From a virus: a stretch of 21,721 bases of DNA. A program made the translations under genes and the position numbers. The notes beneath the pieces were generated by a model. It ran no database searches and was not told the DNA's origin. It was given only the letters and a program-made list of their open reading frames with translations. Position 1 is the stretch's first letter, and each line of letters begins with the position of its first letter. Where the stretch lies: positions 1 to 21,721 of IMG/VR virus record IMGVR_UViG_3300049222_000082. One strand, written 5' to 3'. This document shows, one piece after another, positions 4,627-9,225 of this stretch.

Positions 4627-5490
4627 ATGGGATACAATCCTTACTTAACGTCAGAAGCGATGCAACAGACAGAGAACAATAGCTACGTGGGTAATGAGGT
4701 AGCTAGGTTCGCAGATGCTGTGGCCGCTGCACTAAAAGCAAAGTGGAGCTACAAGCGTAGGAACAGCGTTTGGATCTATCGTGAGAACGAGATTTATGCG
4801 CTAGGTTTTGTGGGTTACGGTGACTTCACCGAAAAAGCCAACGGAGATGCTGCGTACATTGTTCACAGTCGCAACATCGAAAACTGTAGGTACAACGACT
4901 ACAACGCGCAGCATTACATGGCATTTGCCAAGCATTTTGAGAAAGGCCTATCTAATGCTACCCGCCACCTGCGCACCATACCGTGTCACGTAGCTGTGGA
5001 ACGAGAGCTTAGAAACCTACGTAGACAGATGCGAGACATAGACGACTACAGTTCGCGGAAGGTTAGGCAGTTGGCTAACGATGTCACCGATGGGCTAGGT
5101 CGTGGTAAAAGCTCGCCCTTGGAGCGAGAGCTTAAAAACCTTGTGAACACGGGGCATACATGGCTTGATGCAAACTTTGGTGAACAAGTCAAAACGTTCC
5201 TTAACTACAGTGGCGAGGACACGTCCTCCGGTGAGAGTATGTTTGATGTCGTGTATATCAACATCTCGCCACGCGGTACGCAGTCGGTCAACGTGTACAC
5301 TAACATGGATGGTAAAGAGTGGAATTGGGAGCCAGATCCGAGCAATCATTACGGGTGCGATGTGGATCAGCTAGACGAAGAGCTTAAACGTAAGGTGTCC
5401 ACATTGCAGATGGTTGAGCAAGGTACGTTTGTTCCGAATGTTGGCTTTCATGCTCTCACAGGGAGACTGTTCTATGTCGCTCAATCCTAA
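4627..5490 (+). CDS. Hypothetical phage protein (287 aa)
   Basis: The start is taken at ATG 4627, six bases after GGAGA (4616-4620). An ATG at 4621 directly abuts that site and is unlikely. The product is a soluble 287-residue protein. Its N-terminal half contains a beta-rich stretch (SVWIYRENEIYALGFVGYGDF), its middle a charged helix with Arg-rich repeats (ERELRNLRRQMRDIDDYSSR), and its C-terminal third a second beta-rich segment. No family is recognised. A one-mismatch palindrome copy (5062-5079) encodes VRQLAN. It overlaps the next gene by 17 bases. Confidence 0.7.
   Translation: MGYNPYLTSEAMQQTENNSYVGNEVARFADAVAAALKAKWSYKRRNSVWIYRENEIYALGFVGYGDFTEKANGDAAYIVHSRNIENCRYNDYNAQHYMAFAKHFEKGLSNATRHLRTIPCHVAVERELRNLRRQMRDIDDYSSRKVRQLANDVTDGLGRGKSSPLERELKNLVNTGHTWLDANFGEQVKTFLNYSGEDTSSGESMFDVVYINISPRGTQSVNVYTNMDGKEWNWEPDPSNHYGCDVDQLDEELKRKVSTLQMVEQGTFVPNVGFHALTGRLFYVAQS
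5062..5079. repeat. Dispersed palindrome copy, one mismatch
   Basis: GTTAGG-CAGTTG-GCTAAC in the 287-aa gene, encoding VRQLAN. The spacer is the same as in the copy at 315-332. Confidence 0.7.
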
Positions 5491-5854: not shown

Positions 5855-6035
5855 CACAGAATTAAGCATGTTCCAGCAAGCACAGTTGCGTTGGCTCAAG
5901 CGACAGGTAGACAACCTGCAAGAAGAACAATGGCGCAATGATGCGAGGCCCCGTGTAAAGCAAGAACTCTTTGCAGCTCGTGAGGAGTTGGATACTTACG
6001 TGAAGAACCTTCGCAACGCAGGGGTGAAGATATGA
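5847..6035 (+). CDS. Small coiled-coil hypothetical protein (62 aa)
   Basis: Sixty-two residues, almost entirely predicted helix with regular charged/hydrophobic spacing (QLRWLKRQVDNLQEEQWR, then EELDTYVKNLRN), so a short coiled coil is likely. ATG at 5847 follows AAGGAG at 5835-5840. The stop overlaps the ATG of the VRR-NUC gene (ATATGA). Function unknown. It may be a partner of the nuclease, by position only. Confidence 0.7.
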   Translation: MGDTELSMFQQAQLRWLKRQVDNLQEEQWRNDARPRVKQELFAAREELDTYVKNLRNAGVKI

Positions 6036-6355
6036 CACCGGAAGCGAAGGTAAAGAAGAAGGTAGTACGCATTCTGAAAGATGCGGGTGCGTATTACTTC
6101 TACCCTGTGACGAGTGGGTACGGGCGCAGTGGTGTGCCTGATGTAGTTGCATGTCTGGAGGGTTACTTCCTTGGCATCGAATGTAAGGCGGGGAAGAACA
6201 AGCCGACCCCGCTACAACAGAAAAACTTGGACGATATAGACACAGCAGGAGGTATAGCACTGATTATTAACGAGGATAATCTGGACTTATTACAGTCCAT
6301 AATACTGGGCATCAAAGTAGATGTCACGATAACAAAAAACTCAAATGGAGAATAG
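6032..6355 (+). CDS. VRR-NUC domain nuclease
   Basis: A stand-alone VRR-NUC nuclease of 107 residues, the usual size for phage members of this PD-(D/E)XK branch. It likely cleaves branched or structured DNA during replication or recombination. Catalytic signature: GVPDVVA with Asp37, then GIECKAG with Glu50 and Lys52, followed by the conserved Gln of TPLQQKN. The basic N-terminal helix (EAKVKKKVVRILKDAG) is typical of the family. ATG at 6032 overlaps the previous stop and follows GGGGTGA at 6021-6027. Confidence 0.88.
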   Translation: MTPEAKVKKKVVRILKDAGAYYFYPVTSGYGRSGVPDVVACLEGYFLGIECKAGKNKPTPLQQKNLDDIDTAGGIALIINEDNLDLLQSIILGIKVDVTITKNSNGE

Positions 6356-7043: not shown

Positions 7044-7811
7044 ATGCCTGCGAAGAAAACCACTGCGGTAGCAGAAACTTTAATAGTCCACACCGTAAAA
7101 CAAGGTGTGATAAAACTGCGTATGATCGGTCAAACGCCGATGTACTTTAACAGCATGAGCAGTAAGGCTATGCGCGACTTGCTTATCGGCGGGGGAAAGA
7201 AAACCGCTGCGGAGAAGCAAGACATTAAACACAATCCAGAACAAGAGTTTCGGGAAAGTGTGTACACTAAACCAAAGGGCGACACGTTGCTATGCTTCCC
7301 TGCGGCGGGTGTAAAAGGTTCGATGGTTACATCAGCGTTAGAAACAGCGGGGATCAAAAGCACAAACGTAAAACGCTTGGTGTTCTTACCCGAAAGCCAA
7401 ATACAGATTTGGGGTAAGCCGTACCTTAAAATGGATATCGTGCGGTCTGCCGATATAAACAAAACTCCAGATGTGCGTACCAGAGCATACCTACCAAACT
7501 GGTGTTCAGAAATAACGATTAAATATGTGACGCCTACGCTGAACGCCAACGGCATTGTATCGCTGTTGACAAACGCAGGGCTAATCGTAGGGCTAGGAGA
7601 CTTTCGCCAAGAGAAAGGGCGTGGGTCATACGGCACGTTCTCTGTAACAAGCGCGGAAGATATGGGTGAACACCAAGAGGCTTGGGATGAAATCACGAAA
7701 GAAGCGCGTGAAGTCCAAGAGTTAGCTATGGAATACCCCGAATGCGCTGACGAGCAAACGGCAGAGCTTATGAGACTTATGCAAGAAGAGCGGTTGCGTC
7801 GAGCAGCCTAA
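7044..7811 (+). CDS. Conserved-looking phage protein, unknown function (255 aa)
   Basis: A 255-residue soluble protein. The middle has beta-type alternation (KLVFLPESQIQIWGKPYLKM-like, residues 110-130). Then comes RTRAYLPNW (145-153) and a Gly-rich stretch GLGDFRQEKGRGSYGTF (183-199), a pattern I associate with an uncharacterised family in phage early regions. The C-terminus is a charged helix. The Gly-rich loop is only superficially like those of RAMP/Cas7 folds. ATG at 7044 follows AAGGAGAATAACT, the common ribosome binding site of this genome. It is followed by the gene-free repeat region. Confidence 0.75.
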   Translation: MPAKKTTAVAETLIVHTVKQGVIKLRMIGQTPMYFNSMSSKAMRDLLIGGGKKTAAEKQDIKHNPEQEFRESVYTKPKGDTLLCFPAAGVKGSMVTSALETAGIKSTNVKRLVFLPESQIQIWGKPYLKMDIVRSADINKTPDVRTRAYLPNWCSEITIKYVTPTLNANGIVSLLTNAGLIVGLGDFRQEKGRGSYGTFSVTSAEDMGEHQEAWDEITKEAREVQELAMEYPECADEQTAELMRLMQEERLRRAA

Positions 7812-7818
7812 ACGAAGA

Positions 7819-7836
7819 GGGGCGGTTCGCCGCCCT
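7819..7836 (+). other. GC-rich hairpin with TTCG loop after stop codon
   Basis: GGGCGG (7820-7825) and CCGCCC (7830-7835) form a 6-bp stem closed by TTCG, with a further G-T pair at the base. It lies eight bases after the stop of the preceding gene. TTCG is a favoured RNA tetraloop sequence. No T-run follows, so it may be a mRNA 3'-end or pause hairpin rather than a full terminator. Confidence 0.5.
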
Positions 7837-7850
7837 AATTCACGGATAAG

Positions 7851-8198
7851 GTATGGCGGTTCAGGCGGGGCGGGGTCTGTTAGGTTACGGCGGGGTCCGG
7901 TATGTTAGGGCGAGGCGGTTTAGGCGTGTTGTGGTGAGGTATGGCGCGGCGCGGCCAGTCGAGGCGGTCGAGGTGTGTTCGGGTAAGGCGTGGATTGGTA
8001 CGGCGAGGTTAGGCGGTCGAGGTGTGTTGAGGTCTGGCGAGGCGTAGCGTGGCGAGGCGGTTCAGGTATGTTGGGGTCTGGTAAGTTGGGTTACGGCATA
8101 TCAAGGCATGGCGGTCTAGGTGTGTTCCGGTGTGGCGAGGCGTAGCGTGGCGTGGCGGTTTAGGCGTGTTGTGGTTTGGCGTAGCGTGGCGCGGTGTG
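7851..8198. repeat. G-rich degenerate pentamer array
   Basis: About 350 bases of G/T-rich, A/C-poor sequence built from degenerate 5-base units close to GGYRN (for example GGCGA, GGCGT, GGTAT, GGCAT). Longer internal repeats are exact: 22 bases at 7914-7935 and 8154-8175 (240 apart, a multiple of five), 19 bases at 8036-8054 and 8134-8152, and 17 bases at 7963-7979 and 8012-8028 (one mismatch at 8110-8126). The open frames across it on both strands are low-complexity products of the repeat. It lies between gene blocks and could be an origin, a structural element or a recombination hot spot. Confidence 0.85.
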
Positions 8199-8216
8199 GT
8201 TAGCCGACTGACTAAC
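8199..8216. repeat. Dispersed palindrome copy, one mismatch, intergenic
   Basis: GTTAGC-CGACTG-ACTAAC, the only copy outside a gene. It lies immediately after the pentamer array and seven bases before the 9-bp hairpin. Confidence 0.75.
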
Positions 8217-8222
8217 AAAAAC

Positions 8223-8247
8223 AAAGCAGGCTGTGATGGCCTGCTTT
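8223..8247. terminator. Perfect 9-bp hairpin, possible terminator
   Basis: AAAGCAGGC (8223-8231) pairs perfectly with GCCTGCTTT (8239-8247) around a 7-base loop. On the + strand the trailing T-run is short and inside the stem. On the - strand the stem is followed by TTTGTTTTTG-type sequence, so termination would be stronger there. It sits 29 bases before the next gene start. Confidence 0.5.
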
Positions 8248-8275
8248 ACAAACAAAAACTATGGAGAATAAACTT

Positions 8276-8779
8276 ATGTCTAAGTTTTCTAAAAAGACTA
8301 AGCAGCGTATCATAGATGATTACCTGCAAACTACCGGCGCAAATATGTTTGTGCCTTCAGAGTTCGTCGATTGGTTAGCAGGCGAGCCAGAGCATGAAGC
8401 GTACCAAGCGTTTTATGGGATTGACGATGCGGAAGCCGCGAGGCAGCATCGTATACAGTTGGCGCGGCAGATGGCGTCAGGGCTACGCATCGTGGCAAAA
8501 ACGGAGACAGTAGAAAGTTCTGTTGTGTCCATAAAGGTGACAGAATACCCCGCGTATATTTCACCTGTGTCAAAGCGGCGTGAGGGCGGGGGGTACGAAC
8601 CTTTTGACCCTACCGATGAAGTTGCACAAGCTGAGCTACGCAGACAAGCCGGTGTAAGTTTGGCGGCGTGGCTTGAAAGGTTTCGCGGTGCAGCGGAAAA
8701 TTATGGAGTTGATGTAACTCCAGTTGAAGAAATCGTGCGCGTGTTGCGTGACGACAAAGATAAAGCAGTAGGAGAATAA
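8276..8779 (+). CDS. Hypothetical phage protein (167 aa)
   Basis: The start ATG at 8276 lies eight bases after GGAGA (8263-8267). An in-frame ATG at 8261 would overlap that site and is rejected. The 167-residue protein begins with a basic helix (KFSKKTKQRIIDDYLQTTG). A helical stretch with DDAEAARQHRIQLARQ follows. It ends with EPFDPTDEVAQAELRRQAG and SLAAWLERFRGAA, a layout I associate with uncharacterised phage proteins next to DNA polymerase genes. Its C-terminus overlaps the ribosome binding site of the next gene. Function unknown. Confidence 0.7.
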   Translation: MSKFSKKTKQRIIDDYLQTTGANMFVPSEFVDWLAGEPEHEAYQAFYGIDDAEAARQHRIQLARQMASGLRIVAKTETVESSVVSIKVTEYPAYISPVSKRREGGGYEPFDPTDEVAQAELRRQAGVSLAAWLERFRGAAENYGVDVTPVEEIVRVLRDDKDKAVGE

Positions 8780-8781
8780 CT

Positions 8782-9225
8782 ATGAGTGTAATTGGTAAAA
8801 AAGCAGAAAAAGTTTGGGCGTATCTTGTGAAGCACCCAAAGGCCTCTAGTGCAAAAGTTGCTAAAGCGTGTGGCTGCTCGCCATCGTATGTACATCTGCT
8901 AAAGAAAAAGATCGGCACACCGAAAGAGGTGTTGGAAGAAGTAAATCTAACCGTGACACGCGCTGACGTCCTCGACACAGCTAAAGACTATGTGACGAAA
9001 GATCGTGCTGCGGAGCATGGTGACATGGAGACTAACTTCAGCACCATAGCGCAATACTGGTCTGTGCATCTGGACGCGCAAATAACCCCGACAGATGTTG
9101 CGGTTATGATGAACCTGCTCAAGGTTGCGCGAATAAAGTCTAACCCAAAGTCTAAAGATAATTGGGTCGATGGTGCAGGGTACATGGCTTGCGGCGGAGA
9201 GATTGCCAGTGCCTTACGTGCGTAA
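8782..9225 (+). CDS. HTH plus DUF6378-like protein
   Basis: 147 residues. Residues about 8-45 form a helix-turn-helix-like segment (KVWAYLVKHPKASSAKVAKA, then CSPSYVHLLKKKIG). Residues about 62-147 match the pattern of DUF6378, a small phage domain: VLDTAKDYVTKDRAAEHGD, NFSTIAQYWSVHL, VAVMMNLLKVARI and DGAGYMA. DUF6378 has no established function. The fusion to a DNA-binding-like N-terminus suggests a regulatory or replication-linked role. ATG at 8782 follows AGGAGAATAAC. Confidence 0.78.
   Translation: MSVIGKKAEKVWAYLVKHPKASSAKVAKACGCSPSYVHLLKKKIGTPKEVLEEVNLTVTRADVLDTAKDYVTKDRAAEHGDMETNFSTIAQYWSVHLDAQITPTDVAVMMNLLKVARIKSNPKSKDNWVDGAGYMACGGEIASALRA

Follow-up and report, generated by a model that had tools for sequence, protein, structure and literature searches.

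VIPR (Viral Interference Programmable Repeat) systems are known from one 2026 preprint, which describes them as follows (PMC13142463). They are centred on a small, single-domain RAMP protein, which the authors place before CRISPR, and on guide RNAs (vrRNAs) made of alternating GGY triplets and NN pairs; the NN pairs recognise double-stranded DNA with one skipped base between them, usually the codon wobble position (PMC13142463). The systems repress their targets and act as a programmable defence in E. coli, and their natural targets lie in satellites and prophages (PMC13142463). Seven types are distinguished, and in one of them the arrays are staggered and their vrRNAs overlap; the preprint also speaks of "a related consensus". 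Type II, found in phage SUSP1 and in a Pseudomonas fulva prophage, carries a structured, invariable 3' tail after each guide (PMC13142463). Common traits include a glycine-rich loop, a thumb domain preventing the triplet from pairing, about 9–16 repeats per guide and the accessory genes vap1–6 (PMC13142463).

The window analysed here, the whole stretch of 21,721 bases of a virus record from a marine phage, holds a pentamer array in the gap between the end of one open reading frame at 7811 and the start of the next at 8261/8276. Very probably the array and its neighbours form a VIPR locus in which each of seven modules encodes one guide RNA that represses a target. The locus is of a kind already known; the member and its predicted targets are new. 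It resembles the VIPR loci of SUSP1 and P. fulva in its RAMP-fold Vipr protein, its adjacent pentamer array with a held triplet and variable NN pairs, its small neighbour gene, its sense reading of codons with one skipped base and its targets in competing mobile elements. It differs from them in carrying T at the second triplet position in 31% of the units (counted on the modules of related phages) and in targeting recombinases of alphaproteobacterial elements. Furthermore, its modules abut and are split by a 4-base unit alone, which shifts the frame by −1; no structured 3' tail follows each guide in the window array, where hairpins are found at the two array ends only, and the locus is therefore not of the SUSP1 type. 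The staggered, overlapping arrays and the related consensus mentioned in the preprint may cover these differences (PMC13142463). The features of the locus are collected in Table 1.

Table 1. Features of the VIPR locus, in window coordinates (NN, variable pairs).
Feature	Position	Strand	Content or basis
vipr gene, 255-aa RAMP/Cas7-like protein (phrog_4652)	7044..7811	+	profile match to SUSP1 Vipr, fold, array linkage
5' leader hairpin, right after the vipr stop	7819..7835	+	fold −16.9 kcal/mol, z = −2.7
Guide module 1	7859..7917	+	59 bases, 11 NN; decodes [HQ]GGL[RS]TGP[IM][RS][DE]
Guide module 2	7918..7966	+	49 bases, 9 NN
Guide module 3	7967..8015	+	49 bases, 9 NN
Guide module 4	8016..8059	+	44 bases, 8 NN
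Guide module 5	8060..8113	+	54 bases, 10 NN; decodes HIGLKGTMN plus one mismatched pair
Guide module 6	8114..8157	+	44 bases, 8 NN
Guide module 7, last	8158..8206	+	49 bases, 9 NN; closing unit GCCG, not GGCG
3' hairpin at the array end	8221..8249	+	fold −15.2 kcal/mol, z = −4.7
Probable vipr-accessory gene (phrog_15946)	8276..8779	+	172 aa if started at the upstream ATG (8261)

The stem of the 5' hairpin is kept in relatives through paired changes, for instance GCGG/CCGC to GCAG/CTGC, while at the position of the 3' hairpin five relatives (L028, L042, L048, L050 and L054) carry another stem sequence (GTGGGC...GCCCAC) and other relatives have no hairpin. Further out, the locus is flanked by a Holliday-junction-resolvase-like nuclease (6032–6355; Hjc, E 8.8e-06) and by a DUF6378 protein that weakly matches a helix-turn-helix (8782–9225). 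Three open reading frames inside the array, 7853–8047 (+), 8009–8224 (−) and 8130–8315 (+), are mechanical products of a stop-poor repeat and not genes.

The array lies where the original prediction placed it, and its 5-base period is well above that of dinucleotide-preserving shuffles, with a lag-5 identity of 0.49 against 0.33 (z = 6.8) and further peaks at lag 10 (z = 6.3) and lag 15 (z = 5.7). Its long exact repeats fall at the predicted offsets, 22 bases at 240, 20 bases at 98 and 18 bases at 49; the last two lengths had been given as 19 and 17. An assembly error is ruled out, since the same array is present, letter for letter, in contigs of three other metagenomes (L016; L017/L007; L018/L012). 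Between 7851 and 8206 the strand reads 171 G, 90 T, 55 C and 40 A. The proposed unit, GGYRN, is refined to G[G/T]Y-NN on 191 distinct modules of related phages: position 1 is G in 97%, position 2 is G in 64% and T in 31%, position 3 is T in 57% and C in 39%, and positions 4 and 5 are variable. Each module ends with a 4-base unit, GGCG, followed by GTYNN. Because this boundary shifts the frame by −1, module lengths take the form 5k−1, and in the clade they cluster at 39, 44, 49, 54, 59 and 64 bases. The seven window modules (7859–8206) measure 44, 49, 54 or 59 bases and hold 9–12 units, counting the closing 4-base unit; some clade modules are shorter or longer. Other phages mark the boundary by GGCA followed by GGYNN or by a longer separator. 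The latter applies to the arrays of L063, L062, L068, L155, L165, L153 and L164, in which hairpin-like or conserved AT-rich text replaces the 4-base unit; these arrays probably belong to other VIPR types. No match to the array was returned by BLAST of its DNA against phage records or by an Rfam search, and nothing relevant was found in the literature on pentanucleotide or pentameric repeats or GGCNN.

The protein encoded next to the array connects it to VIPR. The profile of the 255-aa family matches the SUSP1 Vipr protein (PDB 36pp_D) with E = 3.6e-42, while the window sequence alone stays below significance (E = 0.52); all 72 aligned members of the family match phrog_4652. The AlphaFold model of the protein (pLDDT 93) has Cas7-like CRISPR subunits, mostly Csm3, as all of its best 50 Foldseek matches (E ~1e-6, TM ~0.4). 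The family consensus contains a glycine-rich loop, AGxxVGxGDxRPxxxGxxGxFxV, and R147, W153, G183 and G197 are invariant. The window Vipr shares with the type III CRISPR-Cas backbone (Csm3/Cas7) its fold and the glycine-rich loop, and its subunits would likewise repeat along a guide and read it at regular steps; the locus differs from CRISPR-Cas in having no identical repeats and spacers and in its predicted gapped rather than contiguous pairing. A Pfam scan of ten window proteins identified no cas family.

The linkage between protein and array was assessed by a protein-blind scan of viral contigs for seven GGYNN units, which yielded at least 120 loci; 82 of those listed have long arrays. A homologue of the 255-aa protein lies near 69 of these 82 long arrays, on the same strand in 68, and a homologue of the 172-aa protein is also found beside 26. 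Among the 38 listed loci without a long array, the respective numbers are 10 and 0. The remaining long arrays (L061, L069, L071, L111, L113, L117, L120, L135, L141, L145, L157, L165 and L167) have no Vipr homologue in the DNA examined, several of these 13 loci being short or cut, and some may be orphan arrays. L143 (2741–3110, 3574–4164) is the sole case of the 69 in which the Vipr homologue lies opposite the G-rich strand of the array. The 172-aa protein gives a confident structure model, for which a structure search returned no fold match, and has no Pfam family; its gene is probably a vipr-accessory gene. Both protein families occur, annotated as hypothetical, in Gordonia phage UmaThurman (gp39 and gp41; L183:3953–4570 and 4967–5350). 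The Vipr family is likewise annotated as hypothetical in Gordonia phages Pipp, Ecliptus and ODay, Pseudomonas phages Medea1 and LESphi2, Listonella phage phiHSIC and Mycobacterium prophage prophiBWHA-1.

The published code can be examined with no reference to any target, through the composition of the NN pairs, whose codon phase is a direct observation. The fourth letter of the unit (A.30, C.165, G.35, T.18) follows codon position 1 of the phage's genes (A.29, C.20, G.35, T.16), and the fifth letter (A.345, C.20, G.18, T.27) follows codon position 2 (A.34, C.22, G.17, T.27). Over the 16 dinucleotides, the NN pairs correlate with sense codon positions 1–2 with r = 0.87; no other phase, nor the antisense strand or the genome average, exceeds 0.06. 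The GGCA-type modules of other phages give r = 0.81, and the sense fit exceeds the antisense fit in 144 of 191 modules. A skip of 0, 2 or 3 bases would let the phase drift along the guide, so that the codon signal would vanish; the NN composition thus supports the published 1-nucleotide skip.

Large collections were searched for targets of window modules 1, 2, 3 and 5. One target decoded with a 1-nucleotide skip reads CANATNGGNCTNAANGGNACNATNAA. For module 5, the viral search used the first eight NN pairs, which the variants of the module in other phages have in common, and left a single base free after each pair. In about 40 of the 49 viral matches the sequence hit is the same in-frame motif, HIGLKGTM, of large serine recombinases (Pfam Resolvase, Recombinase and Zn_ribbon_recom). 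When prokaryote genomes were scanned with nine NN pairs, all 119 matches listed were HIGLKGTMN, mostly from Alphaproteobacteria; by arithmetic, 18 fixed letters would give about 7 random matches over the whole prokaryote collection. The first nine pairs match 18 of 18 letters and the whole module 18 of 20 (19 of 20 in L233 and L276), the last pair being mismatched. Guide variants with GA in place of AA at the ninth pair match HIGLKGTMD variants of the recombinase, the AA/GA change tracking N/D. On these sequence matches, the predicted target of module 5 is HIGLKGTMN, a conserved motif of the catalytic domain of large serine recombinases. Since the motif is very common, this match taken alone could be a coincidence.

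Full-length exact scans with modules 5 and 1, the latter against viral sequences, returned no matches. A candidate for module 1, HGGLSTGPKTD, fits 20 of 22 letters and occurs in 1 of 328 Rhodobacteraceae genomes, which is about chance level. Module 2 had six scattered viral matches, none in frame in a long open reading frame, and no target; the 26 viral matches of module 3 are spread over unrelated genes, none fits the ninth pair, and none of 326 genomes has a match. A target search among the first 180 loci gave no signal, and its 3-nucleotide-skip matches are unmasked arrays.

Two guides of relatives, neither of them used to fetch data, speak against a lucky match of module 5. A module of L048/L049 spells KGTMNALY and matches 16 of 16 letters on the same serine-recombinase motif, starting four codons later; among shuffled guides with eight or nine pairs, none gave a perfect match. 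For a 13-pair module of L039, all 26 letters of 26 fit an in-frame stretch (EIAWTIRCYATKH) of a tyrosine recombinase gene on L297, the best of 100 order-shuffles reaching 21 letters. The perfect score is obtained at skip 1, with 18–19 letters at skips 0 and 2 and the guide's own array found at skip 3. No target of this guide within three mismatches was present in 121 other Rhodobacteraceae genomes. L297 (WTIQ01000318.1, 1–3432) is a contig of 3.5 kb from a metagenome assembly of Rhodobacteraceae; on it, a serine recombinase with HIGLKGTMN comes after two tyrosine recombinases, and two guides of one phage clade thus match one recombinase cluster. Statistics on loci that were themselves retrieved by the skip-1 pattern are in part circular, whereas the codon test and the L039 and L048 matches are not self-fetched. 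When all loci were rescanned, a few near matches came from order-shuffled guides as well (4 matches in one rescan, 3 modules in another). A guide of L051 decodes L[FL]VIDTLAR[RS][RS] and fits, over 18 of 22 letters, the helicase-like LIVIDTLARAM of L006 (8944–8976), making the replication gene of a rival phage a candidate target; L006 itself has a Vipr homologue.

Granting the VIPR machinery, the main role of the array RNA might be to regulate Vipr itself, as a single long scaffold or sponge, the target matches being relics. The modules do abut with no separate tail, and a single long RNA could be capped by the two terminal hairpins; the codon phase is, however, kept over whole modules, guides track target variants and match whole targets (26/26), and modules turn over quickly, as targeting predicts, which leaves this reading improbable. 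Much further down stands a passive element, be it a G-rich slippage array, a replication origin or an R-loop/G-quadruplex element, to which we give hardly any credence. The G/T strand bias and the 5-base period would suit it, but the array is tightly linked to one protein family across diverse phages, its NN content is codon-like, and many units have GT instead of GG. The original prediction was correct that the array is a functional asymmetric element. Replication slippage and drift of a short unit, which it also put forward, are not supported, as slippage gives identical units and here three positions are held while the two free ones carry codon information; nor is an origin, the cumulative GC skew rising through the array with no turning point. 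TRAP (trp RNA-binding attenuation protein) binds targets of about 11 units made of a triplet and a two-base spacer, the spacers being devoid of information. The window array shares this spacing, with about 9–12 units per module, but a TRAP-like RNA bound by a ring protein with meaningless spacers has a negligible probability, because the linked protein is of another family, a RAMP, and the spacers fit targets and are informative about codons. The RAMP identity of the linked protein and the codon-like NN pairs led to the rejection of the origin, slippage, G-quadruplex and TRAP readings.

For the VIPR reading, RNA production, protein contacts, DNA binding and repression are modelled on the SUSP1 work (PMC13142463). 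The array would be transcribed with the flanking genes, in their direction, and single guides would be released, one per module. Vipr copies would coat the guide at roughly one subunit per pentamer, each holding the G[G/T]Y triplet, with NN facing the DNA; the NN pairs would match bases 1–2 of successive codons, skipping the wobble base, and the complex would silence the bound gene. Module 5 would aim at HIGLKGTMN recombinases of alphaproteobacterial prophages and mobile elements to disable competitors, and a conserved motif combined with wobble-free reading would make escape by silent mutation useless. The phage probably benefits in that resident or incoming integrative elements are kept from moving or competing.

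A search with the 255-aa protein retrieved 46 loci, nearly all of which have an array in the corresponding position, composed of different modules, which bears out the suspicion that similar arrays exist in other phages. Contigs whose vipr is 97–100% identical to that of the window share at most one guide module exactly (the leader segment, which is not a guide, was left out of the count), while variants of module 5 recur in phages whose Vipr is only ~79% identical. Judging from these sequence comparisons, gain, loss and exchange of modules far outpace the drift of the genes; the suggested recombination hot spot holds only in the sense of whole-module shuffling between phages. The closest relatives of the DNA polymerase are in Rhizobium phages, KPP25 being a further relative; the Rhizobium phage relatives and the target-bearing genomes indicate that the host is probably an alphaproteobacterium.

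The window thereby provides independent, target-free support for the VIPR code from another phage clade, together with a compact array form with a 4-base delimiter. It adds serine and tyrosine recombinases of alphaproteobacterial mobile elements as predicted natural VIPR targets and reveals that modules turn over very rapidly and are exchanged from phage to phage; the cultured phages that carry the Vipr family are possible laboratory models. More speculatively, and with somewhat less than even confidence, the modules may be an exchangeable library of whole guides that moves between phages, even those whose Vipr is only ~79% identical, and is retuned at single NN positions to target variants, with GGCG as the delimiter that allows both exchange and the release of tail-less guides. 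If so, these viruses would carry a memory that is shared horizontally and directed against recombinase motifs which mobile elements can hardly alter.
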